A DNA stretch of 64,000 nt. Origin: Phytophthora quininea. Lineage: Eukaryota; Oomycota; Peronosporomycetes; Peronosporales; Peronosporaceae. Position numbers and translations under genes: made by a program. Location: NCBI GenBank assembly GCA_011947345.1, contig JAAVTG010000538.1, positions 496,001 to 560,000 of the forward strand, written 5' to 3'. The notes beneath the pieces were generated by a model that saw only the letters and a program-made list of their open reading frames with translations, did not search any database and was not told where the DNA came from. Below, one piece after another: positions 634 to 59,206 of the stretch; the stretch's first letter is position 1, and each line of letters begins with the position of its first letter.

Positions 634-1545
634 CTAGCTGCGGCGGCGATTGCACTTTGACGCGGTCGCAGGGGCGTCCGTCTCGGTAGTAGTGGTGGGG
701 GCCGTCGTGGTGGTTTCCGACGCGGCAGACGGTGTTCCATCGGCAGCAGTACTGGCCTCATTGGCTGTGCTAGCTTCGTTAGCCGTGCTAGCTTCCTGAG
801 TCGATGACGATTTCTCTGTAGAGCCTGAAGACGTTGACGTCGACGGAGCAGTAGTAGTCGTTGACTTCGAGGTCGACGTCGAAGGAGTGGCGGTAGTAGT
901 GCTTGTTGTAGTCGTTGACTGCGAGGTCGACGACGTTGTGGAACTACTGGATGACTTGGCGCCAGTGAGAGGGGCGCAGTTGGTAAACACCTGCCATGGA
1001 GGGCTGTGCAGCGCCAGCCAAATCGATGTCAGCATCGACTTGCCCTCACACGCGGCCTTGTCGTAGGGAAACTTAGCGGGGCTGTCGGGGTAGTTGACGG
1101 CGCAGTTCTGGTCCGAGAAGACGAGAGTGTCATCACACCAAATCTCGCAGGGGCCGTCGTGGCCGGTTGTGAGCTTGTCCCATTGCACCTCGTCCGGCAG
1201 GTCGCGGGCCGTGCCGTTGGTCCACGAGTAACCACATTCGATCGTGGCGGTGCCGTATAGCGAGTCAGTCGCGACGACCTCGTTTTTCCACACGAGTTCC
1301 TTCAACGACTTGTACTTGCTGGCGTTGAAAGCCGTCCAGTAGGCCTCTGTGTTGGACAGCGGGTCGCCCTCGTAGCCCATTCCATCGGGCACGGGCAGCA
1401 CGTTGGAGCTATCCACGGTGCCGGAAGGACTGTTGGTACCATCCTCGTAGATCCAGGTAGGTTTGGGCAGCGTCATCTTGCTGTGCGCTTCGGCCGTGGC
1501 TGCGATGACGGCCGCTGCCAAGACAGCAGAACGAGCGTATACCAT
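634..1545 (-). CDS. Secreted AA17-type LPMO with short Cys-Arg tail
   Basis: The 303-residue product is a secreted copper-dependent lytic polysaccharide monooxygenase of the oomycete AA17 type; characterised members oxidatively cleave pectin. A signal peptide of about 20 residues ends at AEA, so the mature protein begins with His21, as the copper histidine brace requires. A second candidate brace His is His129 in the conserved HxGPCE[VI]WCD block. His180 and Phe186 lie in the ALHxxPWQV[YF]xNC block that closes the catalytic domain near residue 195. A low-complexity Ser/Thr linker of about 100 residues follows, with tandem EASTAN units, ending in a single Cys and RRRS. It lacks the CGSL repeats and GTVAPQ end of most neighbours. 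The start is the only Met that gives a signal peptide directly before His. The frame is intact. Family and secretion are firm; the exact substrate is inferred. Confidence 0.9.
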   Translation of the reverse strand: MVYARSAVLAAAVIAATAEAHSKMTLPKPTWIYEDGTNSPSGTVDSSNVLPVPDGMGYEGDPLSNTEAYWTAFNASKYKSLKELVWKNEVVATDSLYGTATIECGYSWTNGTARDLPDEVQWDKLTTGHDGPCEIWCDDTLVFSDQNCAVNYPDSPAKFPYDKAACEGKSMLTSIWLALHSPPWQVFTNCAPLTGAKSSSSSTTSSTSQSTTTTSTTTATPSTSTSKSTTTTAPSTSTSSGSTEKSSSTQEASTANEASTANEASTAADGTPSAASETTTTAPTTTTETDAPATASKCNRRRS

Positions 1546-2478
1546 CGCGACTTGGAAATCTGAAGAACCCTTCCGTCAAACAAACTCAAAGAGATTTGCA
1601 GAGTGCGAAGCAACAATCAATGTTTGCCAACAAGGCATTGGAAGTCCTCGGTAGGAGAGGGGCAGAATGGCTCTACGGCTGGGACCGAAGAGCGCTGTTC
1701 GATTTGAAAAGAACGCGTGCTGCACCTGAGACGAGATCGCGTTGGCCGTTGCTGTCCGCAATCAAGTGATTCATGGTTCATGAAGCAACAATTGAACTTG
1801 ACTTGATCGTCGCGTGGCACCTGTTCAGGCGATGCAACGACCGACAATGTACCGATCCCGGTACACGAAAAATGCAGATGGATTCCAAGCAAGTAAACTT
1901 CGTGTGATCGTTATCCGCTCCCATACAGAACCACGTGAAGTTCTGACGGTCCTGTTGCAGCGACGACGACGCTTTCTTTCCACCGGTCTGGTAGTTGCAG
2001 CCCTGCCACCCCTGCTTTACGATGAATGTTGGAGAACAAGGTTTTCCAAGAGGAGTCGAAAACGACTCAACCATAAGTCATTGTTCTGTACCAACGTTCC
2101 CATCGCAAAAGAGAAATGTTTCCCGGCGCGCTTTGTAGGCAAATCCCGAGATGCGAAGATGATCTGATCGACTATTGACATGGAGACACTCCCCTCGCTC
2201 AGGACACTCCAAATGCTCCTGCCTGGAACTGAGGTGCCAACGAATATGCTGTTCGACACGGGACCAGTTCCCGGTGGTAGGACTCAATGGAGTGCTGATC
2301 ATATCTCGAGTTAATCGGTCGCTCCAAAATGAACGTAGCGATTCCAAGCACATCGAGCGTTAGTCAAAGAAAGCATTCTTATCTTCCATTCTGTTCTACG
2401 AGGAAGGTTCGGACAACAAAGCACTACACTACAAGTCCTCCAAGCTGCTACCCAACACTGCTGGAAACGATACACAGA
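1546..2478. other. Intergenic between two minus-strand LPMO genes
   Basis: This stretch holds the promoter of the 634-1545 gene and the 3' flank of the next. No coding sequence is supported. A weak Inr-like stretch lies about 60-80 bases upstream of the start at 1545 on the minus strand, but it is less convincing than the core promoters of the other cluster genes. Confidence 0.45.
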
Positions 2479-3357
2479 CTATTCACTCTCACCGCATTTA
2501 GTCACGGCGACGACGACGCACTGAGCACTTGTCCGTGGACGGCGACGACGTCGTGGGCGTCGTGGCCGGAGCGTCGGTGCTGGCACTTGAGCCCCTCCAC
2601 CATTGGATCCAGACGATGTAGTCGTAGGAGCATCCGTGGTCGTCGCGGGGGCCGATGTCTTCTTCGTCGTCGTCGACGGTGCGGTGGTGGTGGTTTGCGA
2701 AGTGTCGCTGGAGCTGCTCGTAGTGGTTGGCGAAGTACCGCTGGAGCTACTCGTCGTCGTGCTGGAGCTCGATGAGCCTCCCTTTATCGGAGCGCAGTTG
2801 GTGTATACCTGCCATGGGGTCGCGTGCAGTGCAATCCAGTAGGACGTCAGCACCTTCTTGCCCTCGCACTTGGCCTTGTCGTACGGCAGGCTGGCGGGGG
2901 TCTTTGTGTAGTCGGCGGCGCAGTTCGAGTCCTCGAACACGAGCGTGCCGTCGCACCAGACCTCGCACGGTCCCTGGTGGGAGGACGTGAAGAAGTCCCA
3001 TTGCACTTCGGCGGGGAGGTCGCGGGGCGTGCCGTCGACAATCGAGAAGCCGCACTCTTTCGAGGCGCCGCTGGCCAGCGTCTGCGAGTCCCAGGCCAGC
3101 TCCTTGAGCGATTTGTACTTGCTGGCGTTGAACGCCGTCCAGTACGCCTTTGTGTTGGAGGCCGGATCCGTGTTGTACGACATGCCGGACGGGACGGGCA
3201 GCACCTTGGTGGGGTCGATAGTTCCGGACGGACTGTTCTGGTTGTAGACCCCTGCAGGCCACGTCGGTAGCGGCAGAATCATCTTGTTGTGCGCCTCCGT
3301 GGTGGCGGTCAGCAGGGTGACGGCGAGCGCTGCGGTCTTGACGAAGAAAGCGACCAT
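2479..3357 (-). CDS. Secreted AA17-type LPMO, frameshift in linker
   Basis: The start at 3357 gives a 22-residue signal peptide ending TEA and a mature protein beginning at His23; the longer open frame to 3444 would bury the signal peptide. Candidate brace His127 lies in HxGPCEVWCD, and His178 and Tyr184 in the ALHxxPWQVY block. The catalytic domain ends near residue 190 and is followed by a Ser/Thr linker. After a GGGG/CCCC run at 2592-2595 the open frame becomes Arg-rich and stops at 2479. The adjacent frame instead gives a Thr-rich tail containing TDAPAT and ending in DKC followed by an Arg cluster, with a stop at 2498. That matches the tail of the 634-1545 paralogue. One missing base in the run would restore it, and similar shifts occur across the window, so I take this as a sequence error. 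The catalytic domain is complete. Confidence 0.88.
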   Translation of the reverse strand: MVAFFVKTAALAVTLLTATTEAHNKMILPLPTWPAGVYNQNSPSGTIDPTKVLPVPSGMSYNTDPASNTKAYWTAFNASKYKSLKELAWDSQTLASGASKECGFSIVDGTPRDLPAEVQWDFFTSSHQGPCEVWCDGTLVFEDSNCAADYTKTPASLPYDKAKCEGKKVLTSYWIALHATPWQVYTNCAPIKGGSSSSSTTTSSSSGTSPTTTSSSSDTSQTTTTAPSTTTKKTSAPATTTDAPTTTSSGSNGGGAQVPAPTLRPRRPRRRRRPRTSAQCVVVAVTKCGESE

Positions 3358-3405
3358 GTTTACGGTGCAAAAGCAGTTTATGCGTGCGCTGCTGGGTTGG
3401 CCGGC

Positions 3406-3421
3406 GAATTCGGGAATGAAC
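3406..3421 (-). promoter_or_regulatory. Oomycete core promoter (Inr-FPR)
   Basis: Read on the minus strand this is GTTCATTCCCGAATTC, which matches the oomycete Inr (TCAYTYY) followed by the flanking promoter region (CAWTTT) with few mismatches. It lies about 50-65 bases upstream of the start at 3357. Function is inferred from sequence and position. Confidence 0.6.
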
Positions 3422-5454: not shown

Positions 5455-5470
5455 GTTCATTCGTCAACTT
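5455..5470 (+). promoter_or_regulatory. Oomycete core promoter (Inr-FPR)
   Basis: GTTCATTCGTCAACTT resembles the Inr-FPR consensus (TCATTY then CAAnTT) and lies about 55-70 bases before the ATG at 5524, a typical distance for oomycete genes. The assignment rests on sequence and spacing only. Confidence 0.55.
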
Positions 5471-5523
5471 GCTTGTCTCAAAAGCTGCCGTCTTGTTGCT
5501 TTGTTGGGACTTAGAGACGAAGG

Positions 5524-6498
5524 ATGATCACCCCTTACAAGACCTTGATCGTGTCCGCCGTGGCGGTCGCACTGGCCACGGTCGGGGCGAATGCCGATGG
5601 CTACGGCGCAGCGGTGGCGACCGACTCGACTTTTGAAGCGAAAAGAATGCTGCGCCTCGAAGCCGCCGAGATCGAGGAAGCTTTCGAAGCCGACATGGCC
5701 GACGACTCGGAGTGCGGCTCGCTCGAAATGGCGGAGGACTCGGAGTGCGGCTCGCTCGAAATGGCGGAGGACTCGGAGTGCGGCTCGCTTGAAATGGCGG
5801 AGGACTCAGAGTGCGGTTCCCTCGAGATGGCCGAGAGCAGCAATGGAGACCAGAACAACGGTGGCAACCAAAACAATGGTGGTTCCTCCAATACTTGGAA
5901 CTCAGGCGGTTCAGCCAACACGTGGAACTCGGGTGGTTCGACTAATAGCTGGAACAATGGAGGTAACAACGGTGGTAACACGTGGAACACTGGGGGTGGA
6001 AACACGGACAGCTCGACGAAGACCACTAGTGGTTCAGATAACACGCAGAAAGTATCTCAAGGCGAGGTAGGCGGTGAAGCCAGCACTAAGGTCGCTGGCG
6101 AGGCCGACTCGGAGTGCGGATCTCTTGAAATGGCCGAAGACTCCGAGTGCGGTTCCCTCGATATGGCCGAAGACTCCGAGTGCGGCTCGCTAGAGATGGC
6201 TGAAAACGACTCGGAGTGCGGTTCTCTCGAGATGGCCGAGAGCAGCAATGGAGACCAGAACAACGGCGATCAAAACAACGGTGGTTCGTCCAACAATAAG
6301 AACAATGGCGGTTCTTCCAACAACCACAACAATGGCGGCAACACCTGGAACACGGGGAACACTGGAAGTTCCACCACTCATCAGGACTCTGGGAACACAG
6401 GCGACAACCAGAAGTACACTGGGTCGCAGACGGACATCGATTTCAGCACGTTCCAAGGCCAGGGGGATACGAACGCGGGTACGGTGGCGCCTCAGTAG
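5524..6498 (+). CDS. Secreted CGSL-repeat protein with RMLR motif, no LPMO domain
   Basis: The 324-residue product has a clear signal peptide (residues 1-24, ending NA). RMLR follows at residues 41-44 with an acidic stretch containing EE, the position and order of the RxLR-dEER region of oomycete secreted effectors. The rest is repetitive: four tandem SECGSLEMA units, an Asn/Gly/Trp-rich spacer (NTWNSGG-type), four more SECGSL[ED]MA units, a second Asn/Gly spacer, and a C-terminal segment YTGS...IDFSTFQG...GTVAPQ. Each repeat has one Cys, eight in all. The same repeats and end occur on neighbouring AA17 LPMOs, so this looks like an LPMO tail without an LPMO head. Its function is unknown; surface or wall attachment, multimerisation and host targeting are all possible. 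A broken copy lies at 30612-32640. Confidence 0.85.
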   Translation: MITPYKTLIVSAVAVALATVGANADGYGAAVATDSTFEAKRMLRLEAAEIEEAFEADMADDSECGSLEMAEDSECGSLEMAEDSECGSLEMAEDSECGSLEMAESSNGDQNNGGNQNNGGSSNTWNSGGSANTWNSGGSTNSWNNGGNNGGNTWNTGGGNTDSSTKTTSGSDNTQKVSQGEVGGEASTKVAGEADSECGSLEMAEDSECGSLDMAEDSECGSLEMAENDSECGSLEMAESSNGDQNNGDQNNGGSSNNKNNGGSSNNHNNGGNTWNTGNTGSSTTHQDSGNTGDNQKYTGSQTDIDFSTFQGQGDTNAGTVAPQ

Positions 6499-6760
6499 AG
6501 ACCTGAACCCGGGCCCCTCCAATTTTACGTGAGTGTAGCGTACACGTGACAAAAGACCAAGCACCGCACGGCGGGCGATTAACGTCGAATATCTGTTGCT
6601 GTAACGTCGCCGTAGCTCATGTGTTCCATGCCTTTAGACCAGTGTGAAGTGCTCGATTTGCCAAGGGTAGTAACTCGAACATACAGCTTGTCATGATGTT
6701 AGTCGTGGTGATCCGCTGGCCATGACTAGCAAGGCTCAAAGTGCTCTACCTAATCAATAG

Positions 6761-7574: not shown

Positions 7575-7594
7575 TAATCAATAGGGAATGCTCC

Positions 7595-8650
7595 AACCGG
7601 AAAGGCGTCCCGGCAAAAATGAAAATGGAGTTTGGGTATGTTTACCTGGGACACGAGGACTATGGTGCCATCGACAGAAGATCGAAGTACGAGGCTCAAA
7701 GCAGTTCTAGATCCGGTGCCTTAAATCCAATTAGACGACACCGGCTGCACTGGCACTGATGATAAGGCTCCGAAGTGGTATTGAAACACGCGCTCTGACG
7801 AAACGATCGTAAGCCTCTGGAACCAAGACCAAGACAGCAACTATCGTAGTTCTTCAGACACCCACATATATTGGATTCAGCTGGGCTCACCTCAACGCTC
7901 CATGCCACGATGCTTCGTACGCTACGCTACTCAAAAAGGGGGTCTGGTTCTCCGATACATCTACTTTTGCGGGGACACAGTTCCGGGGTCCAGTTGTTGT
8001 TCTGGTTTGAGATCGAGTTAAATCCAATGTTCGAACCCGTGTACTGCTGCTGCTGCGAGGTATCGACACCCTGGTTGGTAGTGCCAGTGTTAGTGTTTCC
8101 ACCCCAGTAGTTATTGCCGGTGTTTCCACCCCAATAGTTGTTGCCGGTGTTTCCACCCCAATAGTTGTTACCGGTGTTACCAGTGTTGCCGGTGTTACCA
8201 GTGTTACCAGTGTTGCCGGTGTTACCAGTGTTGCCGGTGTTACCAGTGTTGCCGGTGTTACCCTGGTTGGTGTTGTCGTCGCCCTTGCCACCAGCGACAT
8301 CTAATGAGCCGCAATCAGACTCAGTTCCGCCAGTACTAGGAGTATTGTTGTTGTTTTGGTTGGTGTTGCCGCCATTGTGCTGGTTTTCGTCGCCCTTGCC
8401 ACCAGCGAAATCTAATGAGCCGCAGTCAGACTCGGTTCCGCCAGTGCTAGGAGTACTAGGCGTAGATCCGCCCGTTGACGGAGGCGAACCTCCTGTCGAC
8501 GGGGTAGAAGGAGTCGATGGAGAACCCGCCGACGGACTGGTCGTAGTAGATGGTGCAGTAGTCGTCTGCGTCGACGGGGTTGAACCCCGGACGAAGGCGT
8601 TGACGGGGAGGAACCCGATGAAGGGGCCGAGGTGACCGTCGGGGTATCGG
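7595..8650 (-). repeat. Inverted segmental duplicate of 29.25-30.34 kb
   Basis: This block, covering the tail and 3' flank of the LPMO gene at 7961-9296, matches the tail and 3' flank of the plus-strand LPMO gene at 28633 in inverted orientation, with a few indels. The match continues about 370 bases past the stop codons. Beyond it, both loci carry the 3' end of a tail-only gene (5524-6498 here, the broken copy there), so the duplicated unit is a convergent gene pair. Confidence 0.8.
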
Positions 8651-9296
8651 CGCCGCCACCAGTGGACGATCCCGCCGAGCTGGTTTGCGTGGCGCCACCA
8701 CCGCCGCCCGAGCCGCCCTCCAGTGGGGCGCAGTTGACGTACACTTGCCAGGTGGACGAGTGCATGGCCATCCAGTAGAACGTGAGCTGACTGGCACCAG
8801 AGCAGGAAGCCTTCTTGTACGGCAGCTCAGCCGGAACCATCTTGTAGTTGGCGGAGCAGTCGTCGTCGTGGAAGGCCATGGTGTCGTCGCACCAGACCTC
8901 GCAGGGGCCTTCGTGGGAAGGTGTAAAGCCCTCCGAGCTTGAGTGCGACCACTCGACGGTAGTCGGGAGTGGCTGCGCGGTCTGTTTCGGGTCGCAGGAG
9001 CCACACGTGAGTGTGGCACCAGTAACAGTGACCTTGGCCTTGTCGTCGATGAAAGCCTTGAGCGACTTGTACTTGCTCGCCTTGAAGGCCTTGGTGTAGG
9101 CGGCCACATTGTCTGATGGCGCGCCGTTGAACGTGCCCGAGAGACCGGAGGCCGATGACTCGATGGTGGCGATGAACTGAGTCGGGTCACCGGCGGTGGC
9201 GGTGAACTTACACGCCGGCTTAGTCATGTAGCCGTGACCACTGACGGTCGTGACAGCCACAGCGGCAGCGAGCAGACACTGGAAAGGGACGAGCAT
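7961..9296 (-). CDS. Secreted AA17-type LPMO, mosaic gene with CGSL tail
   Basis: Start 9296 gives a 20-residue signal peptide ending SG and mature His21. His128 (HEGPCEVWCDD), His179 and Tyr186 are the candidate active-site residues. The catalytic domain, to about residue 198, is identical in protein sequence to that of 12904-13992. The linker open frame runs on to 8412 with an Arg-rich end. A one-base shift at the CCCC run 8585-8588 instead opens a Ser/Thr/Pro linker, two ESDCGSLD[FV]AG repeats, ten Gly-Asn-Thr units, NYWGG repeats and a YTGSN tail. A second one-base shift at 7985-7988 restores an ending in PGTVSPQK with a stop at 7961-7963. That tail is the tail of the 28633 gene, so this is a head-tail mosaic. 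Both shifts fit the homopolymer-loss pattern of the window, so I annotate one gene; a real pseudogene is possible. Confidence 0.75.
8173..8262 (-). repeat. Gly-Asn-Thr coding minisatellite, 10 units
   Basis: Ten consecutive 9-base units encode Gly-Asn-Thr, mostly alternating GGTAACACC and GGCAACACT, so the effective period is 18 bases. The homologous tract at 29647-29754 has 12 units, showing length change since duplication. Confidence 0.85.
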
Positions 9297-12189: not shown

Positions 12190-13490
12190 CTCTTTGTCAT
12201 TCTCCAGCTCCTTGACGAAAAGTAGCCTAAAATTGATCTACGTGTTGTGCGAGATCAATACAAGCAGCACCCGAAGCTCAAGACTCGTGTTTGAATCCTT
12301 CAGAAGGCTCTATCATTGTTGGAGAAGCTCTCTCTAATTGTCTACTGCAGCAGTAATCGATGGCGTAAGCTCTTCATCTCCTACCGAAATCAAACTTGAC
12401 TTAGTCGTCCCGGTAGTGCGCTTCGTGTCTTTCGTATTGTAAGGAACATGCATACCTGTTAAATCTGGTGGTGCAGACTTCAGCATTTTATCCAGGAACT
12501 TCGGCATTTTCAAACGCATAAACACCCAGGACCACGTCAAGTTGACGCGGTTTGCCTAGTCGTGGAATCTATACAGGTAAAGGATCCCTTCCGGATCCAG
12601 CTGGGACGCTAGAAGCCCGCAAAGACTTGCAGCGGTGTTGTAGTGGTGCTGGGTTTGATCGCGTACTTCGACCACGTTCGTTTGCCTTACTATTTTGTGG
12701 ATCCTGGGAAAGGCTGGTCCAGCACGAAGAACGCGAAGAGAAGAGAGAGAGAGAGCTGACCCTCCAAGCCTGTTTTCCGAGAGAGGGATTTGCCTGGCAC
12801 AGCCACTTAATCCAAAGAGTGCACCTTGTTTGTGGCGTTCGAAGTGGTCCAGGCATTCATCAATTTGCTGTGCGTCCGTTTAGTATTCGAGCTCTCAGGG
12901 AACATGCTCGTCCCTTTCCAGTGTCTGCTCGCTGCCGCTGTGGCTGTCACGACCGTCAGTGGTCACGGCTACATGACTAAGCCGGCGTGTAAGTTCACCG
13001 CCACCGCCGGTGACCCGACTCAGTTCATCGCCACCATCGAGTCATCGGCCTCCGGTCTCTCGGGCACGTTCAACGGCGCGCCATCAGACAATGTGGCCGC
13101 CTACACCAAGGCCTTCAAGGCGAGCAAGTACAAGTCGCTCAAGGCTTTCATCGACGACAAGGCCAAGGTCACTGTTACTGGTGCCACACTCACGTGTGGC
13201 TCCTGCGACCCGAAACAGACCGCGCAGCCACTCCCGACTACCGTCGAGTGGTCGCACTCAAGCTCGGAGGGCTTTACACCTTCCCACGAAGGCCCCTGCG
13301 AGGTCTGGTGCGACGACACCATGGCCTTCCACGACGACGACTGCTCCGCCAACTACAAGATGGTTCCGGCTGAGCTGCCGTACAAGAAGGCTTCCTGCTC
13401 TGGTGCCAGTCAGCTCACGTTCTACTGGATGGCCATGCACTCGTCCACCTGGCAAGTGTACGTCAACTGCGCCCCACTGGAGGGCGGCTC
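12190..13490 (+). repeat. Right arm of large inverted repeat
   Basis: Inverted copy of 8715-9890. It includes about 700 bases upstream of the LPMO start at 12904 and the whole catalytic domain. Similarity ends at the Gly-rich start of the linker, after which the two genes carry different tails. Confidence 0.85.
12851..12866 (+). promoter_or_regulatory. Oomycete core promoter (Inr-FPR)
   Basis: AGGCATTCATCAATTT matches the Inr-FPR consensus with one mismatch in the core. It lies 38-53 bases before the ATG at 12904, giving a short leader. It is conserved at 9334-9349. Confidence 0.6.
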
Positions 13491-13992
13491 GGGTGGTTCC
13501 TCGAACACCACACAAACCGGCTCCAGCGGCTCCACCCCGTCTACGGGCACTTCGTCTCAGGGAGGCTCTACTCCTGCTACGCAAGCACCCTCTAGTGGGG
13601 GTTCCACGCCTTCGACGAGTGCCCCTTCAAGTGGTGGCTCGACTCCATCTACGGATGCACCAGCGTCGACCCCGGCCCCGCAAACTCCTTCGACGCCGTC
13701 GACCCCGTCCACTGGATCCGGATCGGACTGCGGTTCGTTGGACGTCGCCGGGTCGTCGGACTGTGGCTCTTTGGATGTCGCTGGAAGCGCGTCGGACTGC
13801 GGTTCTCTCGATGTCGCCGGAAGCGCGTCGGACTGCGGTTCTCTTGACGTTGCCGGAGGTGCGTCGGACTGCGGATCCCTCGACGTTGCTGGGTCTGGTG
13901 ACGGCAACCAGGCGTACTCCGGCTCCAAGTCGAACATTGACTTTAGTACCATTCAGGGAACAACGAATGCCGGAACGGTGGCTCCTCAGTAG
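12904..13992 (+). CDS. Secreted AA17-type LPMO with five CGSL repeats, intact
   Basis: This 362-residue protein is the best intact example of the full architecture in the window. Residues 1-20 are a signal peptide ending SG, and mature His21 begins HGYMTKPACK. Candidate copper ligands are His21 and His128 (SHEGPCEVWCDD), with His179 and Tyr186 in the AMHSSTWQVY block. The catalytic domain ends near 198. A Ser/Thr/Pro linker with repeated SSGGSTPST units follows, then five SDCGSLDVAG repeats and the terminal segment YSGSKSNIDFSTIQG...GTVAPQ. The longer open frame from 12826 includes the core promoter, so the start at 12904 is preferred. As an AA17 member it should oxidatively cleave a plant cell-wall polysaccharide, probably pectin, outside the cell. 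The role of the tail is unknown. Confidence 0.92.
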   Translation: MLVPFQCLLAAAVAVTTVSGHGYMTKPACKFTATAGDPTQFIATIESSASGLSGTFNGAPSDNVAAYTKAFKASKYKSLKAFIDDKAKVTVTGATLTCGSCDPKQTAQPLPTTVEWSHSSSEGFTPSHEGPCEVWCDDTMAFHDDDCSANYKMVPAELPYKKASCSGASQLTFYWMAMHSSTWQVYVNCAPLEGGSGGSSNTTQTGSSGSTPSTGTSSQGGSTPATQAPSSGGSTPSTSAPSSGGSTPSTDAPASTPAPQTPSTPSTPSTGSGSDCGSLDVAGSSDCGSLDVAGSASDCGSLDVAGSASDCGSLDVAGGASDCGSLDVAGSGDGNQAYSGSKSNIDFSTIQGTTNAGTVAPQ

Positions 13993-15155
13993 AAGTTCTG
14001 GAGAGGAAACAAACTTTGATGTAGTAGCGTCAATCGTGAGCCCATAGAGTGGAAACGGAATGCACCGGGTATATGAGTGTTACTAGTAGTATAAGAAAGT
14101 CTTGCGCTATCGGAAACACTCGTTTTCACGTATGCACGTCGTTCCTCGGCTCCTGTCGTCCACCATCTAACAGCAGAAGCACCATAACATCACGTCCTTG
14201 GAACAACAAAACATCAATTGTTTTTATCAATAACACTACGTGGTTTCGTGGCACACCGTCAAACATCTACAACATCGCCGATGGGTTCTGTCGACAAGAG
14301 TCTCCTGTGTATGCTACTCAAACAAGGGGTCTGCTTCGCCGAGGAATCTAGTTGGGGGTCACGGGTCCGGCGTTCCAGTTGTTCTAGTTTTGGAGCTGGT
14401 CGAAACCAATGTTGGTGTTGGAGTTGGTAGTGCCTCTGTTGGTGTTTCCACCCCAGCCATTGTTACCGCCTTGGTTTGTGTTTCCGCCCCAGTAGTTGTT
14501 CCCATCTTGGTACGTGTTTCCACTCCAGTAGTTGTTACCGCCATAGTTGCCGGTGTTACCAGTGTTACCGTTGTTGCCCCAGTTGTTATTTTGGTCGGAG
14601 TTATCTTGGTCGCCCTGGTTGGTGTTGCCGCCATTGTCCTGGTTGTCGTCGCCCTTTCTACCAGCGGCATCTAATGAGCCGCAGTCAGACTCAGTTCCGC
14701 CAGTGCTAGGAGTACTAGGCGTGGATCCACTGGTTGACGGCGTGCTAGGTGTAGATCCGACCGTTGACGGAGTCGAACCCCTGTCGACGGGGTAGAAGGA
14801 GTCGATACGGAACCCGCTGACGAACTGGTCGTAGTGGATGGTGCAGTAGTTGTCTGCGTCGAAGGGGTGGACCCCCGGACGAAGGCGTCGACGGGGAGGA
14901 GCCCGAGGACGGCGTACTCATCGTTTGCCCATCAGTCGCACTACTCCGCGTAGCTGGGCTAGGAGTATTGGTTGTGCTTTTCTTCGTAGTCGTCTGCTTG
15001 GTCGTTGTGCCACTGGACGAACCACCACTCAAAGGAGCACAATGGTGTACACCTGCCCCGGCGTCGCGTGCAGCGCAATCCAGACGGACATCAGCACCGA
15101 TGAGCTTTGGCATTTAGCCTTGTCGTACGGAAGACTGGCCGGGGTCTTGGTGTAG

Positions 15156-18514: not shown

Positions 18515-18963
18515 CCGGGGTCTTGGTGTAGTCTGCAGCGCAGTTCCAATTCTCAAACACAAGCGTATCGTTGCACCAGACCTCGCACGGCCCCTGGTGG
18601 GATGCTGTGAAGAAGTCCCATTGCACTTCGTTGGGTAAGGCCCGAGCTGTGCCGTCGACTACTAAGAATCCACATTCCTTGGATGCACCATCTGCCAGCT
18701 TTTGGTTATCCGATGCGAACGCCTTGAGCGACTTGTACTTGCTCGAGTTGAACGCCGTCCAGTAGGCTTTCGTGTTGGAGGTCGGGTCCGTGTTGTATGA
18801 CATGCCGGACGGAGCAGGTAGGGCGCTCGTGGGGTCAATGATTCCAGACGGACTGTTCTGGTTGTAGACCCCTCGGGCCACGTAGCGTCATCTAGTTGTG
18901 CGCCTTCGTGGTGGGGGCCACCACGAAGGCAGCACCAGCGACAACTTTAATAGCGAAACCCAT

Positions 18964-20048: not shown

Positions 20049-20076
20049 ACTTTGCTTGCGATTTCCCGACGGTAGA

Positions 20077-20601
20077 ATGCTAGCCCTGTCCAAGGTTCTG
20101 GTGGTGCTGGTACTGGCCGTGGCGCTAGTGGCAGGCGAAGAGTACAACACGGGCTACACGTCCGGCAGAATGCTGCGAACTGAAGAAGCCGATGCTGCCG
20201 AAGAGGAGATGGCAGACTCGGAGTGCGGCTCACTTGAGATGGCTGAAGACTCGGAGTGCGGCTCACTCGAGATGGCCGATGAGCAGAATCAAGGAAACAC
20301 TAACACCGGCGGAACCCAACAAAACAATGGGGGCACCGGAGGTGACACGTCCAACACCTGGGGGACTGGTGGTGGCACGACTCAGAACTACGGTAGCGGA
20401 ACCACGCAGAACACCGGCGGAGACACGTCCAACACATGGGGCACCGGTGGTGGCACGACGAAACACACCGGCGGGGACACGTCCCAAAACAACGTGTACA
20501 CGTCCAACATTAACCAGAACACTGGAGGCGGCTCACAGGCGGTCGACTTCAGCACGCTCCAAGGACAGCAAAACCCATCGGGGACCGTGGCGCCGCAGTA
20601 G
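20077..20601 (+). CDS. Small secreted RMLR / CGSL-repeat protein
   Basis: The start at 20077 follows the core promoter and gives 174 residues; the longer frame from 19999 would include the promoter. A signal peptide (residues 1-20, ending AG) is followed by RMLR at 31-34, then acidic TEEADAAEEE, a near-classical RxLR-dEER layout though without the final Arg. Two SECGSLEMA repeats come next, then a Gly/Thr/Asn-rich spacer with NTWGTGGGT-type repeats, and the terminal SQAVDFSTLQG...GTVAPQ. It has no catalytic domain and only two Cys in the mature protein. It is the smallest member of the tail family shared with the LPMOs. RxLR-like status is inferred from motif and position only; its function is unknown. 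Confidence 0.85.
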   Translation: MLALSKVLVVLVLAVALVAGEEYNTGYTSGRMLRTEEADAAEEEMADSECGSLEMAEDSECGSLEMADEQNQGNTNTGGTQQNNGGTGGDTSNTWGTGGGTTQNYGSGTTQNTGGDTSNTWGTGGGTTKHTGGDTSQNNVYTSNINQNTGGGSQAVDFSTLQGQQNPSGTVAPQ

Positions 20602-22585: not shown

Positions 22586-22589
22586 AACT

Positions 22590-24889: not shown

Positions 24890-27400
24890 AGAGAGAGGGA
24901 GGAAGGTAGTCTATTCAACGATTAGTTATTAGTCTCCTTGATGCAGCTTCAATCGATGAAGCATCGTTGGTTCTCTCGTCTTGGGCCGCTTGAAAACGTA
25001 TGACAGTTTCCGGTCGGGAGCTTCGGGCATGCTATCCAGACAGTCCAAGACTAGTCTGAGATATATTCCTTGTATCCTGCTTTGTGGTCTGTGCTTCTTT
25101 CCGAGCAACAGCATGTATTTGCCTTAGGCATTTTCCCCGCATACTCTTTATGTGATGTTGCGCCGTCCAAGTTTTTCCTTCGTGTACTACGCTGTTACGG
25201 GTCTGCCACAGCAGGGTGAACGCCTTGCTGCACAGAGCCCACCACATTCGTTGGGCCGCCGTTTTCGTGTCCTTGTTGAATTGACCGTACATTGTACGCA
25301 TTTAACGGATGAATTCCTCGCTTACTGGAGGAGCTTTACGTTGGGCAATGTTACTGCTGAACCACTGGATCTCTTCCTCGGATACCGCGCATCCAAACCA
25401 GTGAGTTAAAAGGAATCGCCAGAATTACCGAGCTCGTAGACAGTCCCACACAATGTGCAGTATATCGACATGTCGACTGTTACAGTCCATATCTACTGGG
25501 CATCCTGGGTGCTCTTCCTTTCCTGGGTAGTACAAATTGAGTTGTTGCATGGCAACTCGGTAATTCGACCCATACCTGATAGTCGGTTAGCATTGACGCA
25601 TGCGTCCATAGCTGCTTCGGGGTTTGTCCGAGCACTTCTCTGATCCATTCATTTTTTGGCTTTCAGTTCCAACTTGGTGATTATGTGGTGTAATAGCGGC
25701 TCAGCGCTCTGTCGATATCGCTGCTTGACTTGTCGTTTCAGTTTCCACGAAATGTTGCGGTTCCTGGTTTTCGCCGGTACAGTCCACGGGATTTCGTGTA
25801 GTTCGGGGTTTGCGTCGAAAACTATCCCTGCGCCGTGTTTTGCGAGTTTCTTGGCGTCCCGTTTCGCGTTTGAAAATGATTTGACCTTCCAAAACAGTCC
25901 ATTATCCTGGCGCTCCAGTGTGATCTTACTATCCTGCTGTTGGGTCGTGCCTTCCACCGTGTCCTTTGTCAGCAGCTTCCACTGGTAATCGTTGCGGAGC
26001 CGTGGAGGTGATCGGAGTTGCAGTTTGATGGAATGCCCCATCGTTTCACCAATTTGAAGAAGAGGGAGTTCATCAATACCCAGTAGCCATCTCTGTAACT
26101 TCGCCAAGGAATGGCCCCAATCTTCCCCTTGGGCAGTAGGAATTCGAGCCGTGTAGGTGTCTTGAGACGTCCTCGTGATGCCCAAGTTTTCAATTGCTGT
26201 CACCTCAATTTTGTCGTACCTTTTTCGTGATAGACATGCGTCGGCTGTGTCCCGGATCCATGGGTTTCCTATTCATGAAAACGTCCCCCAGAAACGGACG
26301 ATGTCTTCGGGCGGCCTGCTGGGTCCGTTTAGTTCCTCCAAATCCACCGTTACCGTGGTCAATTCTCGTGATATCGGTGTGTAAGTCAGGTTTTTAGTTG
26401 TTCTGACGACCAGTTTTTCCAGCTTTGGCAGGTCCTCTATGGTCTTTCTCTCTCGTTCGAGCGCTTCTACTTTGGTTGGTGCTAACGTTCGGCTCATTTC
26501 CACTAGGAGCTCGCGTGTACCTCGTGGACAGCTCGGCATGTTGCTTTTCCGCGACGGGATCCTGGGGGATCTGCGGTTCCACTGTTTGTGCTAGTCCAGT
26601 CCAGAGTTTCCATGCACCCTTGTAGATATCTGCCTTCCCCAGGAGCCACTGCAAAGTTACTTTTATCCGTTGCACTTGAATTGCTACCGGTATCGATGCC
26701 AGTCCTAAGCCCCCCGCCTCGTGCGGTGTGAAAACCAACGCTGGGTTTATCTTGTGTCTGCTTGCTTCTTCTCGGATCTGGCCCCTCCATAAGAAGTGCT
26801 TTTGCATGCTCACGAGCTGCTTCATCGTCTGGGAGGAGGAAATATTTTCACTGTAAACAGCAGTGACGACAAAGCGATAGTGTTGAGCAGGTCCACTCTC
26901 TCTGCAAGACTGGTGGCAATTTTTTCTGCTGTCACCATTCTTCTGGCGATGTTTCTTTTCCTGACCGCCCAATTGATCTGCTGCAGATTAACCAAGCCGA
27001 TCTCGTAACCGAGATAACTAGTGGTTGATCCCTGTTGGAGAACTATCCCCTTCCAGTCTTGTCGCTGAATCGCCTTGTTCAGGAAAATAAACTTACTTTT
27101 GGCCGGTTGCACATGGAATCCTGACATTATGCCGAATTCATTGACAATAGTCATTGCTCTCGGTAATTGCCCGCTTTTCTCTAAGAACAACGTGGAGTCA
27201 TCAACGAAAGCTGTTCTTCGGTCGAGTCCTCCATCTGCACTGTTAGTCCTTTGAGCTCTTGGTCTTGAGCTATTGCTAGCGCAAGCAATTCCACCGCTAG
27301 GAGAAAAGCAGAGGCACTAACGGACAGCCTTGTCGTATTCCAGACCTGATAGACATTGGTTACGAAAGCTCACCATTTACCAGAAATTGTGTTGTAGTGT
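24890..27400 (-). mobile_element. 5'-truncated LINE retrotransposon, second family
   Basis: A 20-bp target duplication TGGTTAaAAATTCGTACATG (one mismatch) lies at 24870-24889 and 27401-27420. The minus-strand remnant starts inside the reverse transcriptase (NGELS...IRQGC) and passes FVDDSTLFLEKSG, GFHVQPAKSKFIFLN and SYLGYEIG. It continues into the C-terminal region (HFLWRG, HEAGGLGLASIPVAIQVQR, then VVHEGKTWTAQHH), with frame breaks throughout. It differs from the LINE at 15156-18514. It sits about 100 bases from the hAT element, so this spot has taken several insertions. Confidence 0.85.
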
Positions 27401-27420
27401 TGGTTAGAAATTCGTACATG

Positions 27421-28583: not shown

Positions 28584-28600
28584 TCATTTTTCCTTCGTTT
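28584..28600 (+). promoter_or_regulatory. Weak Inr-FPR-like promoter
   Basis: TCATTTTTCCTTCGTTT has a good Inr (TCATTTT) and a poorer FPR, 33-49 bases before the ATG at 28633. Position supports it more than sequence does. Confidence 0.4.
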
Positions 28601-28632
28601 GCTGCTCGCACCTGCCTACCGCCAAGAAGAAC

Positions 28633-29997
28633 ATGGTCGCTTCGTACAAGTGCCTGCTCGCTTCCGCGCTGGTTGTGACCACCGTCAACGCCCACGGCTG
28701 GTTGTCTAAGCCAGCCGCCGAGTTCCCGGCGTCAGCTGGAGACAAGTCCCAGTTCATCGCCTCCATCGACTCGGCCACTTCGGGCTTGGAGGGCTCGTTC
28801 AGCACGTCGCCAGCTGACAATGTGGCGTCTTTCACGAAGGCGTTCAAGGCCAGCAAGTACAAGACGATCAAGGCCCTCATCGATGACAAGGCTAAGATTG
28901 GTGTGACGGGTGCTACACTCACGTGTGGTACGGCCAACCCCAATGCCACCCCGCAGCCGGTGCCGTCCGATTTGGAGTGGGCGCACTCCGACTCGGAGGG
29001 CTTTACACCTTCCCACGAAGGCCCCTGCGAGGCCTGGTGCGACGGCACCCAGGTCTTCAGCGACGAAAACTGCGCCGCCCATTTCACCACTGCCCCAGCC
29101 AAGATGCCGTACACAAGCAGCGCCTGCTCGGGTGCCAAGATGCTCACGTTCTACTGGATTGCTATGCATGGGCCCTCGTGGCAGGTGTATGTCAACTGTG
29201 CTCCGCTGTCGGGCTCGGGCGGCGGTGGTGGCGGCGATACTCCGACGGTCACCTCGGCCCCTTCGTCGGGCGCCACTCCTTCAACACCATCCTCGGGCTC
29301 AACTCCTTCAACACCATCCTCGGGCTCTACTCCTTCAACGCCGACGACTACTCCACCATCCACAACGACCAGTCCGTCGGCGGGATCCCCATCGACTCCT
29401 TCTACCCCGTCGACAGGAGGTTCGCCTCCGTCAACGGGCGGATCTACGCCTAGTACTCCTAGCACTGGCGGAACCGAGTCTGACTGCGGCTCATTAGATT
29501 TCGCTGGTGGCAAGGGCGACGAAAACCAGCACAATGGCGGCAACACCAACCAAAACAACAACAATACTCCTAGTACTGGCGGAACTGAGTCTGATTGCGG
29601 CTCATTAGATGTCGCTGGTGGCAAGGGCGACGACAACACCAACCAGGGTAACACCGGCAACACTGGTAACACCGGCAACACTGGTAACACCGGCAACACT
29701 GGTAACACCGGCAACACTGGTAACACCGGCAACACTGGTAATACTGGTAACACCGGCAACAACTATTGGGGTGGAAACACCGGCAACAACTATTGGGGTG
29801 GAAACACCGGCAATAACTACTGGGGTGGAAACACTAACACTGGCACTACCAACCAGGGTGGCGACACCTCGCAGCAGCAGCAGTACACGGGTTCGAACAT
29901 TGGATTTAACTCGATCTCAAACCAGAACAACAACTGGACCCCGGAACCGTGTCCCCGCAGAAGTAGATGTATCGGAGAACCAGACCTTTTTGAGTAG
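28633..29997 (+). CDS. Secreted AA17-type LPMO with CGSL and GNT/NYWGG tail
   Basis: Start 28633 gives a signal peptide (1-20, ending NA) and mature His21 (HGWLSKPAAEF). His128 in SHEGPCEAWCDG, His179 and Tyr186 complete the AA17 signature. The domain ends near 194. The tail comprises a Gly run, Thr/Pro/Ser repeats (SSGSTPSTP), two ESDCGSLD[FV]AGGKGD units, Asn-rich spacers, twelve Gly-Asn-Thr units, three NYWGGNTG units, then QQQQYTGSNIGFNSI. The open frame ends at 29997 with an unrelated end. Adding one base to the CCCC run at 29939-29942 gives PGTVSPQK and a stop at 29964-29966, matching the family end, so the true 3' end is probably 29966. The catalytic domain and most of the tail are intact as given. 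An upstream in-frame Met at 28501 would bury the signal peptide. Confidence 0.9.
   Translation: MVASYKCLLASALVVTTVNAHGWLSKPAAEFPASAGDKSQFIASIDSATSGLEGSFSTSPADNVASFTKAFKASKYKTIKALIDDKAKIGVTGATLTCGTANPNATPQPVPSDLEWAHSDSEGFTPSHEGPCEAWCDGTQVFSDENCAAHFTTAPAKMPYTSSACSGAKMLTFYWIAMHGPSWQVYVNCAPLSGSGGGGGGDTPTVTSAPSSGATPSTPSSGSTPSTPSSGSTPSTPTTTPPSTTTSPSAGSPSTPSTPSTGGSPPSTGGSTPSTPSTGGTESDCGSLDFAGGKGDENQHNGGNTNQNNNNTPSTGGTESDCGSLDVAGGKGDDNTNQGNTGNTGNTGNTGNTGNTGNTGNTGNTGNTGNTGNTGNNYWGGNTGNNYWGGNTGNNYWGGNTNTGTTNQGGDTSQQQQYTGSNIGFNSISNQNNNWTPEPCPRRSRCIGEPDLFE
29647..29754 (+). repeat. Gly-Asn-Thr coding minisatellite, 12 units
   Basis: Twelve 9-base units encode Gly-Asn-Thr, nearly all alternating GGTAACACC/GGCAACACT (18-bp period). 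The paralogous tract at 8173-8262 has ten. Confidence 0.85.
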
Positions 29998-30611
29998 CGT
30001 AGCGTACGAAGCATCGTGGCATGGAGCTGGCAGCGTTGAGGTGAGCCCAGCTGAATCCAATATATGTGGGTGTCTGAAGAACTACGATAGTTGCTGTCTT
30101 GGTCTTGGTTCCAGAGGCTTACGATCGTTTCGTCAGAGCGCGTGTTTCAATACCACTTCGGAGCCTTATCATCAGTGCCAGTGCAGCCGGTGTCGTCTAA
30201 TTGGATTTAAGGCACCGGATCTAGAACTGCTTTGAGCCTCGTACTTCGATCTTCTGTCGATGGCACCATAGTCCTCGTGTCCCAGGTAAACATACCCAAA
30301 CTCCATTTTCATTTTTGCCGGGACGCCTTTCCGGTTTTGTGCAGTTCATATTGATCAGGTAGAGCACTACGTTGAGCCTTGCTAGTCATGGCCAGCTGAT
30401 CACCACGACCAACATCATGACAAGCTGTATGTTCGAGTTACTACCCCTTGGCAAATCGAGCACTTCACACTGGTCTAAAGGCATGGAACACATGAGCTAC
30501 AGCGACGTTACAGCAACAAATATTCGACGTTAATCGCCCGCCTTGCGGTGCTTGGTCTTTGTCACGTGTACGCTACACTCACGTAAAATTGAGGGCCCCG
30601 GGTTCAGGTCT

Positions 30612-32640
30612 CTACTGAGGCGCCACCGTACCCGCGTTCGTATCCCCTGGCCTTGGAACGTGCTGAAATCGATGTCCGTCTGCGACCCAGTATACTTCTG
30701 GTTGTCGCCCGTGTTCCCAGAGTCCTGCTGAGTGGCGGAACTTTTTATTTTATTTTCTCGGTTATCACCGGTTAGCGCTCAGGGCGAGCACGGCATCAGC
30801 CCTGCTGACCGGGTAGAACCCGGCGGCTCCGGTTGCTAATCCTGCCACTCATATCCAGAGCTACCTACATGCACGAGCTAACGGGATGGCTATCTTACTA
30901 TGCACACGAGCGCGTGACTCGCTTCAGTTTCCCGTCAATACCTCGTCATACCGGGTAGCATCGGTGCGGCGAAGCTTTACAGTCAGTCCTTGGTCGGGTC
31001 GGATCCATTGCCTCATGTGAAGGGTGCTGGATCCCTTACATCGTTGGCGGCAACCTGTGACGGTGCCCCTTGGTGGGTTGCGCACTTGGTCACTCGCCAG
31101 TGCGTGCGGAACTCTTGGTATCTTGATCACTAGTTATTCGACCCGTACTTGCTGTGGTGCATTGTCGTCTTCTTGCTTCTCCCGGTAGCCCGATACGGGA
31201 ACTAGTATTGCTCAGACCACCGTTCTTGTTCCCGTCGCGTGCTCAACATCGATATCTGTGATACTTCGCCCCACAGCGTGACCAAGTTGTCTGCCGTATT
31301 CCCGGACACGGGTGCCACAGAAGTGTTTGTTAGTGATGCATTCAGTCTCTATCGGTCCGATCGCCCTTGGATGCGTGTGGGGACAGAACGATCGACCGGG
31401 TTCGTATGCACGCGTGTGCCACATCAGGTGCAGGTTGTCGTTACTGGGACCTTGATTTCCGGAGCTCCACTGATCGTTATCCTGCAAAGATCCCCTCACT
31501 GTGCCACCGTCAAAGTGGCATCTCTGCTCTTCTACTATGCTCCCGCACTTCTGTGAGGTTCTGGGGTTCCTTGTTGGCCTTGTAGTCTTTGGGATCGTTG
31601 CTTGTCCTGGTCTTGCCATTGTCCCCTGTCGTAGTCTTGAGTTGCCTGTGGTTTTGTAACGACCGGTCGCGTCCGTGTTGGCGCATGGCCCCTCCGCGTC
31701 GTGGTGCTGCTCTCCGTCGAGACTCGCTGCGGCATCCCCGGGTCACTGTGGCCCGATGTGTTCTCGTATGTCTCCATGTTCGCGCCGGGCCGAACGCTGG
31801 GCCCACGATCCTGCCCGGCCTTCGGCCTTGGTTCCTCTTGTCCGTGGATTTCTCTTGGCACACTGGGGATACAGCACCGCGGTACGAGCAGGCTTCTATC
31901 TGTCCTTAGCTTTCTCCACGGTATTCACTTCTGTACGGATGGTGTCGCTGTTGACTCTGTGTATCTCCTTCACTCGCGATCTCACGCGAGCGGCGAGGCT
32001 GCCTGCCGTGATTCCCCCTCGGGCTTAGGGCGTATCGGTTCGCACCTCTTGGTAGATTTGGGAATAGAGTGGTGGGACTTCCAGTGTTCCCCGTGTTCCA
32101 GGTGTTGCCGCCATTTTTGGTTGTTACCTCCGTTGTTCCAGGTGTTGGAGCCGCCACTGTTTTAAGGGTTGGAGGAACCACCGTTGTTTTGGTTCTGGTT
32201 GTTGGAGGAATCACCGTTGTTCTGGTCCCCGTTGTTCTGGTTCTGGTTGGAGCTACCGCTGTTCTGGTTGTTGGAAGACCCGCCTTTGTTCCAATTGGTG
32301 GAGGAACCGCCGTTGTTTTGGTCGCCGTTGTTCTGGTCACCATTGCTGCTCTCGGCCATCTCGAGGGAACTGCACTCGGAGTCTTCGGCCATTTCAAGAG
32401 ATCCGCACTCCGAGTCGGCCTCGCCAGTCACCTCAATGTTCGCTTCACCGCCTACCCCGCCTTGAGATTCTTGCTGCGTGTTATCTGAACCACCAATGTT
32501 CTGCGTCGACGAGCTGTCCGTGTTTCCACCCCTGTGTTCCACGCGTTACCACCGTTGTTACCTCCATTGTTCCAGCTATTGGCCGAACCGCCCGAGCTCC
32601 AAGTATTGGAGAAGCCCCGTTAGTCTTGGTTCCCGTGGTA
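30612..32640 (-). pseudogene. Broken copy of the RMLR/CGSL gene at 5524
   Basis: From about 32640 down to 32067 the minus strand encodes the middle of the 5524-6498 protein: NTW/NSW spacers, the GGEANIEVTGEADSECGSLEMA region, one normal CGSL repeat and one degraded SECSSLEMA, then Asn/Gln/Gly spacers. After a 1.3-kb insert it resumes at 30743 with the end of the gene and its 3' flank, ending at the stop at 30612-30614. The signal peptide, the RMLR region and the first CGSL block are missing, and the 5' break is at about 32640. With no start and an insertion it is dead. Gene plus 3' flank match 5880-6750 in inverted orientation. Confidence 0.85.
30744..32066 (-). mobile_element. Retroposon-like insertion in tail-only pseudogene
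   Basis: The insert is flanked by a 14-bp direct repeat with two mismatches (GAGTGGcGGaACTT at 30730-30743, GAGTGGtGGgACTT at 32067-32080). On the minus strand it ends in an A-rich tail (AAAATAAAATAAA), which with the long target duplication suggests a non-LTR retroposon. Minus-strand open frames (31510-31863, 31212-31619) are basic and polar but match no domain I recognise. Comparison with the uninterrupted gene at 5524-6498 confirms the insertion point. Confidence 0.65.
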
Positions 32641-33099
32641 GCAAGGGCTTACTAGCCGATCGTTTCGTCAGAGCCCGCGCTAACTTTCACATTATCACCA
32701 CGACACAGTGCCACGTTTGAAAAAAAAAAAAATGTCGTCTAGTTGAACAGGGATCTACACAGGAGACTGAACGCACCGAGTTTCAAGGCACTGATGAAAT
32801 GGACCCACAACCATCTTGGCCGCATTTTGGCCGCGATTAGCGATAGAAAATGAGCCTGGCACACTGTAGTCGGGCATCTGTTGCGGCAGAATAAAAAAGT
32901 AAATGTTGCTTGTCGTGATGTTAGTCGTGGTGATCCTTCCGCGTGCCTTTACCAAGCCGCAGCAAGCCGGCGGTAACCTACGCGGTCCGGTGTTCTCGAG
33001 CTTTCATCATGCATCTTCCTCGAGCCCAGACAGCGCAACGCCATCCACGCGCACCTTTCCCTCGGACAGTCGAGCTTTCGACTACTGCCCCGGAGCACT
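32641..33099. other. Intergenic upstream of LPMO gene at 33152
   Basis: Contains a run of thirteen A at about 32719-32731 and no supported coding sequence. An open frame running into the LPMO from 32903 is upstream extension only. Confidence 0.45.
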
Positions 33100-33115
33100 C
33101 TTCATTCCTCGATTC
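33100..33115 (+). promoter_or_regulatory. Oomycete core promoter (Inr-FPR)
   Basis: CTTCATTCCTCGATTC matches Inr TCATTCC followed by an FPR-like CGATTC, 37-52 bases before the ATG at 33152. Confidence 0.55.
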
Positions 33116-33151
33116 CCGCGGGTCCCGCAACGCCGACAAAGCTTACGAACA

Positions 33152-34518
33152 ATGGTGTCCTGCTCATTCACCGCTTTGGTGGTCGCCGCGACCCTGGCGC
33201 ACGTCAATGCGCACAGCTACATGATCGACCCGATGCCAACCTGGCCGGTGTCCTGGGCGACCAACAACTTCGCCGCCACCATCGCGGGCCAGACGTACCT
33301 GCCGTGCCCCGACGGCATGTCGTACTCGACGGCCCCGGAGCTCAACACGGAGGCCTACTGGACCGCCTTCAACGAGAGCTCGTACACGTCGCTCAAAGAT
33401 TTGGTGGACAAGACTGGAGAAGTGCAGACACTGTCCCCGTTCGGCACCGCCACACTCGAGTGCGGTTTCTCGCTCGCCAACGGCACGGCCCGTGACCTAC
33501 CGTCCCAGTACGTCGAGTGGAACCAACTGACTGAAGGCCACGACGGCCCGTGCGAGGTTTGGTGCGACGACACGCTCGCCTTCCAGGACGACAACTGCGC
33601 CGTCAACTACCCAGAGTCTCCGTCCCAGTGGCCCTACGACGTCTCCAAGTGCAAGAGTGCCTCGCGTCTCACGGCCTACTGGATCGCTCTACACGGTCTA
33701 CCGTGGCAAGTGTACATCAACTGCGTCCCGCTTACTGGCTCAGTGAATGGCACCACGGTGGCGACGGCCACCACCACGTCGTCGGGCTCTACTTTCACGA
33801 CGACAACTACCACGACGACTGCTCCGTCAACGACCACTACGGCCCCGATGGCCACTTCATCTGCTAGCACGACGACAGCCCCGCCGCCACGACGGCCACT
33901 CCGTCGGCCACTACAGCTAGTACCACCACCGCCTCCAGTACTGCTGCCGAAGCCGAGGACTCGGACTGCGGCTCACTTGACATCGCTGGGTCGGATGAGT
34001 CTGACTGCGGATCTCTGGATGTAGCCGGCTCGGATGAGTCTGACTGCGGATCACTCGACTTAGCTGGCGACGGCACCGGCGAATCCACCGGAACACCCAC
34101 CGGCACCTCGACATCAACAACTGGAACCTCGTCAACGAGCACCTCAACTACTGAAAACACTTCTACCGGAACCTCGACGACCGGAACTTCGTCAACGGGC
34201 ACCTCGACAACTGGGACATCGGCATCGACAACCGGAACCTCAACGACTTCCACCTCAACGCCAACCATTGCGTCGTCAGTGGCTGGTGATGCCGAGACGG
34301 CCAGCTACGTTCAGTCGGACTGCGGCTCTCTCGACGTGGCTGAGGAGGGTTCGGAGTGCGGTTCGCTCGACATTGCCGAGGATGACTCGGAGTGCGGCTC
34401 TCTCGATATTGCCGAGAGCTCCAGCACCGACGCCGCCTACACGGGCTCGGAAACCGGAATCAACTTCAACACGTTGCAGGGCTCCAACACCGCCGGCACG
34501 GTGTCCCCTAAAGCGTAG
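33152..34518 (+). CDS. Secreted AA17-type LPMO with two CGSL blocks
   Basis: The start at 33152 gives a signal peptide ending NA and mature His21 (HSYMIDPMPTW). His130 (HDGPCEVWCDD), His181 and Tyr188 complete the signature. The PTW motif after the N-terminus groups it with the 634 and 2479 genes. After the catalytic domain (about residue 195) comes a Thr-rich linker. The open frame then drifts into Pro/Arg and stops at 34024. One added base in the CCCC run at 33889-33892 opens the expected tail: three SDCGSLD[IVL]AG units, many TGTS repeats, three more [SE]CGSLD[VI]AE units, and YTGSETGINFNTLQG...GTVSPKA with a stop at 34516-34518. The tail is fully open in that frame, so I annotate one gene with a probable sequence error. 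Confidence 0.88.
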
Positions 34519-59166: not shown

Positions 59167-59206
59167 GGTCAAGTGCTCAAGTCAACTGGAAGCAACGACG
59201 AACGGG

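Follow-up and report, generated by a model that had tools for sequence, protein, structure and literature searches.

Lytic polysaccharide monooxygenases (LPMOs) are copper enzymes. Those of family AA17 have been linked to virulence; the C-terminal half of these enzymes has been described as a variable disordered extension. AA17 is a large family in Phytophthora, given as 46 copies on average in the accessible part of PMC8393829. Cysteine-rich, redox-sensitive disordered C-terminal regions (dCTRs) are reported for AA11 and AA15 enzymes in the accessible part of a survey that did not extend to AA17 (PMC8615602). Here we describe a window of 64,000 nucleotides of Phytophthora quininea (contig JAAVTG010000538.1, in our numbering C527:496001-560000, from a genome of 87.2 Mb in 993 contigs) in which AA17 LPMO genes and small secreted proteins without an LPMO head share a C-terminal tail made of CGSL units. 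This CGSL tail is real and conserved. As the best explanation of its sequence features we propose that it would be a secreted, disordered, strongly acidic multi-thiol tether common to LPMO heads and head-less carriers, a reading that we regard as a serious possibility but still short of probable. Below, T stands for the acidic CGSL tail and K for a basic Cys-Arg end (KCxVRRRR) found on other genes.

The CGSL tail, its carriers and its conservation

Units and terminal segments were located by six-frame translation of the window. The tail consists of two to eight units of the form [SE][DE]CGSL[DE]xA, with one Cys per unit, followed by a C-terminal segment. At six loci (5524, 7961, 12904, 20077, 28633 and 33152) units and terminal segments lay at the positions claimed in an earlier reading of the letters alone (the sequence-only reading). 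The genes and pieces in the window, named by their first position, are the following.

634..1545, minus strand: AA17 LPMO with PTW head and in-frame K end SKCNRRRS, in one open frame
2479..3360, minus strand: AA17 LPMO with PTW head; KCSVRRRRRD is out of frame with the head (frame reading)
5524..6498, plus strand: stand-alone tail protein with signal-like N-terminus, RMLR, eight CGSL units and terminal segment, without LPMO head; intact frame
7961..9296, minus strand: mosaic LPMO copy with a 12904-identical head (657 bp, 9363-8707) and a 28633-like tail, the frames of which differ
12904..13992, plus strand: AA17 LPMO with HGY head, five CGSL units and terminal segment; single intact frame
14660..14740, minus strand: CGSL tail remnant of the 28633 type
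18517..18883, minus strand: AA17 head piece of the PTW type, pseudogene
20077..20601, plus strand: short stand-alone tail protein with signal-like N-terminus, RMLR, two CGSL units and terminal segment; intact frame
28633..29997, plus strand: AA17 LPMO with HGW head and two in-frame CGSL units; the GTVSPQK letters (29943) are out of frame
30632..32410, minus strand: broken copy of a 5524-type tail
33152..34518, plus strand: AA17 LPMO with PTW head, six CGSL units and terminal segment; the tail is in another frame than the head, and the copy on contig C375 is one open frame

Protein database searches with the tail regions of 12904 (47 proteins at E<=1, 7992 candidates scored) and 5524 (21 proteins, four of them new) gave 50 tail-bearing proteins, the chance match P0047 being left out of all counts; 20077 as query found no match at E<=1. 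These searches depend on shared five-residue words and similar length, and absence elsewhere is weak evidence. The proteins with a named source come from 19 Phytophthora species and from Nothophytophthora, Peronospora and Bremia, and for three no species is named. Assigned by motif, the heads are of type A in 17 proteins (HSYM/PTW AA17), of type B in seven (HGY-EVW AA17), of type C in 20 (HGY-EAW AA17) and of type D, with a PF03067 head, in three (P0031 and P0032 of Nothophytophthora, P0043 of P. cinnamomi), and the last three proteins, from Peronospora and Bremia, are stand-alone. The terminal segment has two forms, one reading roughly YTGS..IDFSTLQG..GTVSPQ on types A and B and the stand-alone proteins, the other SESSLNFDDVDG.YxSGKVQPQ on types C and D.

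Conservation of the unit was followed through 14 type-A orthologues with 85 units. Counted from the Cys, Ala occupies +6 in 85/85 and Ser −2 in 84/85, and an acidic residue stands at −1 in 83/85 and at +4 in 84/85; the C-G-S-L core letters are part of the search pattern. Mean pairwise identity in type A is 91% in the head, 44% in the linker and 72% in the terminal segment (14 of 17 proteins; P0022, P0028 and P0051 are near-duplicate, truncated or odd models and were left out). The corresponding values in type C are 85, 49 and 69% (16 of 20 proteins, leaving out P0024, P0035, P0037 and P0041 on the same grounds). When the 27 window units are compared in pairs, the differences at codon positions 1, 2 and 3 number 352, 26 and 1876; the unit pattern selects protein letters, yet 15/15 units of three intact genes match it. 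Two copies of 12904 differ in the tail by 11 synonymous and two non-synonymous codons as well as by length changes, and in the head by eight and two. The tail might be taken for a low-complexity, mucin-like spacer with little function of its own, in line with the accessible description of AA17 C-termini as disordered, Ser/Pro/Thr-rich and variable (PMC8615602) and with the variable linkers seen here. However, units and terminal segment are kept where the linker diverges, the codon differences fall mainly on the third position and unrelated heads bear the same tail, and we consider a mere spacer very unlikely.

The number of Cys residues equals the number of units, which ranges from two to eight and may be odd or even, in 49 of 53 tails (exceptions: P0023, P0028, P0044 and P0048). 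In the predicted structure of 12904 the tail (residues 201-362) has a predicted local distance difference test score (pLDDT) of 36-53 in ten-residue blocks and no secondary structure, while the head (21-196) is mostly above 75, with one block at 56. On this pLDDT basis the 12904 tail is a predicted disordered C-terminal region of the kind defined for LPMOs. Mean pLDDT of the predicted 5524 structure is 41. These models predict that the tail is intrinsically disordered.

A Pfam scan of seven window frames returned nothing over cut-off, and none of the curated Pfam and NCBIfam models reaches its cut-off in the tail; matches below cut-off were weak (Anophelin in 20077, E 0.021; New_glue and Sporozoite_P67 in 33152, E 0.022 and 0.04). 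On these Pfam and NCBIfam scans we reject a described domain, and a folded disulphide domain is disfavoured by the predicted disorder of the 12904 tail and by the odd Cys numbers. A recent duplication within one species is likewise rejected, since the 50 proteins represent 19 named species of Phytophthora together with three further genera. A known domain and a recent single-species duplication were the two outcomes that the sequence-only reading had named as fatal to its proposal, and neither was found, the former in Pfam and NCBIfam. Its view of the tail as a separate module common to PTW and HGY heads has held, with a range wider than it supposed, since PF03067 LPMOs, stand-alone proteins and downy mildews are included.

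LPMO heads and reading frames

The head of 12904 (residues 21-196) is similar to the P. infestans AA17 structure 6z5y both in sequence (phmmer E 1e-15) and in predicted fold (Foldseek E 5.1e-12, template modelling score by target 0.74). The likeness is confined to the head: the alignment with the solved 6z5y chain, of ~180 residues, does not go beyond the catalytic domain. H21, H128 and H179 are invariant in 34 sequences, giving the N-terminal and the second conserved His, and we take the copper ligands to be among these histidines. An AA17 head query found 122 places on 37 contigs of the genome. The PF03067 (LPMO_10) heads of the cluster are over cut-off, with 7ze9, which we take to be an AA16 enzyme, as best solved match; PF03067 occurs at 10 places across the genome contigs. 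AA16 is present in Phytophthora at about 5.7 genes per oomycete species, according to the accessible part of PMC6420742, and the cluster PF03067 heads would fit AA16 by this family presence and small gene number. Unlike the cluster PF03067 genes, which carry T or K ends, the AA16 LPMOs are described there with no mention of such ends.

Four LPMO genes with a CGSL tail had been claimed for the window. Tail sequence is present at all four, but head, units and terminal segment share one open frame in 12904 alone. The frame of 33152 switches inside the linker, for which an intron may be the cause, and its copy on C375 is a single open frame of 539 aa. C375 repeats many cluster genes at very similar sequence, from which we infer that it is the apparent allelic contig, or other haplotype, of the window cluster. 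In the 7961 copy, the two CGSL units of which lie within 7961-8450 on the minus strand, the frame also switches inside the linker; the matching C375 copy is broken alike, so an assembly error is unlikely. The units of 28633 are in frame, GTVSPQK is in another frame and the last residues are lost; the C375 copy also reads past GTVSPQK. The Cys and Arg end ascribed to 634 and 2479 is in frame in 634, but in 2479 KCSVRRRRRD is read in a frame other than that of the head. As for a proposed tailed AA17 pseudogene, both a head piece (18517-18883) and a tail remnant (14683) are present, but they lie ~4 kb apart and do not establish one gene. Elsewhere in the window, minus-strand open reading frames at 15628-17448 and 25649-26972 resemble, by eye, remnants of reverse-transcriptase elements.

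Shared tails, basic ends and re-paired heads

In Nothophytophthora the tail occurs on all four head kinds (P0008, P0040, P0042, P0031). By locus number P0042 (AA17, type C) and P0032 (PF03067, type D) lie next to each other on one Nothophytophthora contig. Their heads cannot be aligned (best E 0.19), whereas their tails are 56% identical over 130 residues (E 9e-40, a value overstated by the lack of low-complexity filter and composition correction). Over the last unit and terminal segment, mean scores in chosen subsets are 138 for C-C, 134 for D-D and 121 for C-D pairs, against 65 for A-C and 64 for A-D. The genome of the window has a T-tailed PF03067 gene (C527:480770, minus strand) adjoining a T-tailed type-C AA17 gene (C527:482039). 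The 12904 tail found 21 places in this genome, all on C527 at 480-570 kb or on C375, and two more tail queries added no contig; as far as these searches reach, the tail is confined to this cluster within the genome.

All downy mildew matches of the two tail searches (P0048, P0049 and P0050, from Peronospora and Bremia) are of the stand-alone form. In 5/5 stand-alone proteins R-M/T-L-R is found at residues 31-44 and is followed by an acidic stretch, against 0.1-0.3% of shuffles per protein. This arrangement resembles an RxLR leader. RMLR stands at residue 41 of 5524 and residue 31 of 20077, in both cases behind a signal peptide judged by eye. Such proteins could be RxLR-type effectors entering the host, with the tail chiefly a host-directed or immune-related sequence that LPMOs borrowed later. 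The rarity of the motif in shuffles and the uniformly stand-alone downy mildew matches would fit, but the five proteins are homologous and make the motif a single case, and it is absent from LPMO-borne tails. On the motif we do not class the stand-alone proteins as RxLR effectors, and we give an effector origin of the tail very little credence.

In the cluster, KC[STN][VR]RRRR or a near variant closes many AA17 frames, two PF03067 genes also have a K end (C527:483552, C527:485150), and some AA17 frames have neither T nor K, for example L028. The Cys-Arg end, noted earlier as an alternative to the tail, is thus present but is better described as a second shared end, found on both LPMO families. 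L028 and L029 (C527:489034 and C375:64342) have a third AA17 C-terminus, GWGTSFGFRH or GWGTSFSFRH, and contain SGTVSPS internally. A search of the DNA with a K-end pattern gave 17 matches vs six in a reversed control. Reading of eight of these loci showed two PF03067 genes, 2479, three frames that are GH5-like by eye, one 11-aa frame and one empty locus. One GH5-like frame was scanned and matched PF00150 just below cut-off (E 7.5e-5, 22.8 bits, cut-off 23.5). In this genome the K end may mark secreted wall enzymes in general. The GH5-like frames at C561:394602, C742:66513 and C742:68375 (L084, L086, L087) end in KCSVRRRR, like many cluster LPMOs. A literature search on Cys/Arg-rich ends found nothing relevant by title.

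The two ends differ in charge. T tails are acidic, with a net charge of −5 to −52 (41 of 47 LPMO-type proteins; the two mildest are odd models), whereas K-ended tails are near neutral as a whole (−8 to +5) and carry +3 to +6 over their final 14 residues. Within 16 residues around the Cys, T units are net negative in 219/219 cases (mean −5.2) and K ends net positive in 11/11 (+3 to +5). This opposition around the Cys, and the occurrence of both ends in one cluster and on both LPMO families, could reflect charge-coded thiol docking, in which acidic T tails and stand-alone scaffolds would be joined to the basic K ends of other LPMOs and a GH5-like enzyme in mixed-disulphide multi-enzyme assemblies. 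The opposite charges may also serve separate roles, for example binding of acidic pectin by K ends, and we think such docking improbable.

Two cases point to re-pairing of heads and ends. The PF03067 genes at C527:480770 (minus) and C527:483552 (plus), 2 kb apart, have 564 bp in common at 99.3% identity, covering the mature head and some of the signal peptide; beyond this tract, one gene continues into T and the other into K. Similarly, the 7961 copy equals 12904 over 657 bp, from 67 bp upstream of the start codon into codon 197, and from 8540 to 7641 it is 93-100% identical to 28633 in 60-base blocks. The 3' border of both near-identity tracts is the end of the catalytic domain, at the border of head and linker. 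That the genes are oppositely oriented and the highly identical tracts short fits ectopic gene conversion of heads, which probably accounts for the re-pairing in these cases, although two are few and other recombination is possible. A movement of the tail between LPMO head types had been suggested from the letters; re-pairing is indeed seen, but the near-identity tract is the head, and conversion of the head is the likelier course. The near-identical PF03067 heads with different ends offer a ready-made comparison, the tail being the main difference. Taken further, the cluster would be an oomycete analogue of cohesin-dockerin systems without folded docking domains, T tails and head-less T scaffolds capturing the K ends of LPMOs and a GH5-like enzyme through charge-guided mixed disulphides while gene conversion re-pairs the heads with T or K; we rate this as a long shot. 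Two tandem ABC-transporter-like genes at 54604-63230, PDR-like (pleiotropic drug resistance) by eye, have a long identical protein stretch common to both frames and are perhaps another case of gene conversion.

A possible tether and its described relatives

As a tether, the CGSL tail would act through the single Cys of each unit, which would form intermolecular disulphides after secretion. These would hold the enzymes in multimers, or in the matrix of the hyphal or plant wall, close to where the attack takes place. Stand-alone tail proteins would act as non-catalytic partners in that network, and the conserved C-terminal segment would serve as a short docking or binding motif. Fixed internal Cys pairs are unlikely because the number of units, from two to eight, is both odd and even. 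We favour a redox tether over a folded binding domain because of the one Cys per unit, these odd and even numbers, the predicted disorder and the sharing across enzymes. The tether is also supported by the conservation of units and terminal segment beside a varying linker and by the same tail on unrelated heads and head-less proteins. Dimerization of the fungal LPMO CoAA9 reportedly proceeds via a disulphide. A precedent for the tether is the disordered C-terminal region of this enzyme, which promotes homodimers and cellulose binding according to the accessible part of PMC13224840.

Several points weigh against a tether. The thiols could pair internally, carry modifications or bind metal; the AlphaFold2 model of 5524 was built from only five sequences; T is absent from many LPMOs of this cluster; and in Peronospora and Bremia the letters after the Cys are partly altered (CEEL, CESL, CNSL). 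Binding of copper or calcium by the Asp/Glu/Cys(/Met) units, to feed or protect the copper site or to bridge to pectin, would suit LPMOs as copper enzymes and the abundance of Cys and acidic residues in the units, 27/85 of which in type A have Met at +5. One Cys per unit and predicted disorder argue against it, the Pfam and NCBIfam scans showed no known metal motif, and the tail also occurs without an LPMO; metal binding appears unlikely.

In the literature searched we found no description of the CGSL unit, the matches to its letters being, by title, on Colletotrichum, citrus or similar subjects, although the primary AA17 paper (Sabbadin 2021) or its supplements could contain one; on AA17 and LPMO C-termini, the accessible parts of the sources speak only in general terms, of disorder or of other modules. 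The X473 and X474 modules on Aphanomyces AA15 LPMOs are, like the CGSL tail, short Cys-bearing C-terminal oomycete modules that also occur on other enzymes. In contrast to the tail, with its one Cys per tandem unit and two to eight units, they have six and four conserved Cys in one domain and are given as restricted to Saprolegniales in the accessible part of PMC8393829. Our sequence comparisons suggest a swappable tether across two families of wall-attacking copper enzymes and small secreted proteins. If this is true, an exchangeable tail on two LPMO families and head-less proteins would imply that location or assembly is specified independently of catalysis. We know of no CGSL units in the CoAA9 tail, which differs from the CGSL tail in belonging to a fungal AA9 enzyme. 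As we propose for the CGSL tail, it is disordered, belongs to an LPMO of a plant pathogen and joins molecules (Tamburrini 2024, as cited in the accessible part of PMC13224840). The dCTRs of LPMOs described in the accessible part of PMC8615602 resemble the CGSL tail in being C-terminal, predicted to be disordered and placed behind the catalytic domain; unlike them, the CGSL tail has a defined conserved unit and terminal segment and is found on two LPMO families and on head-less proteins.

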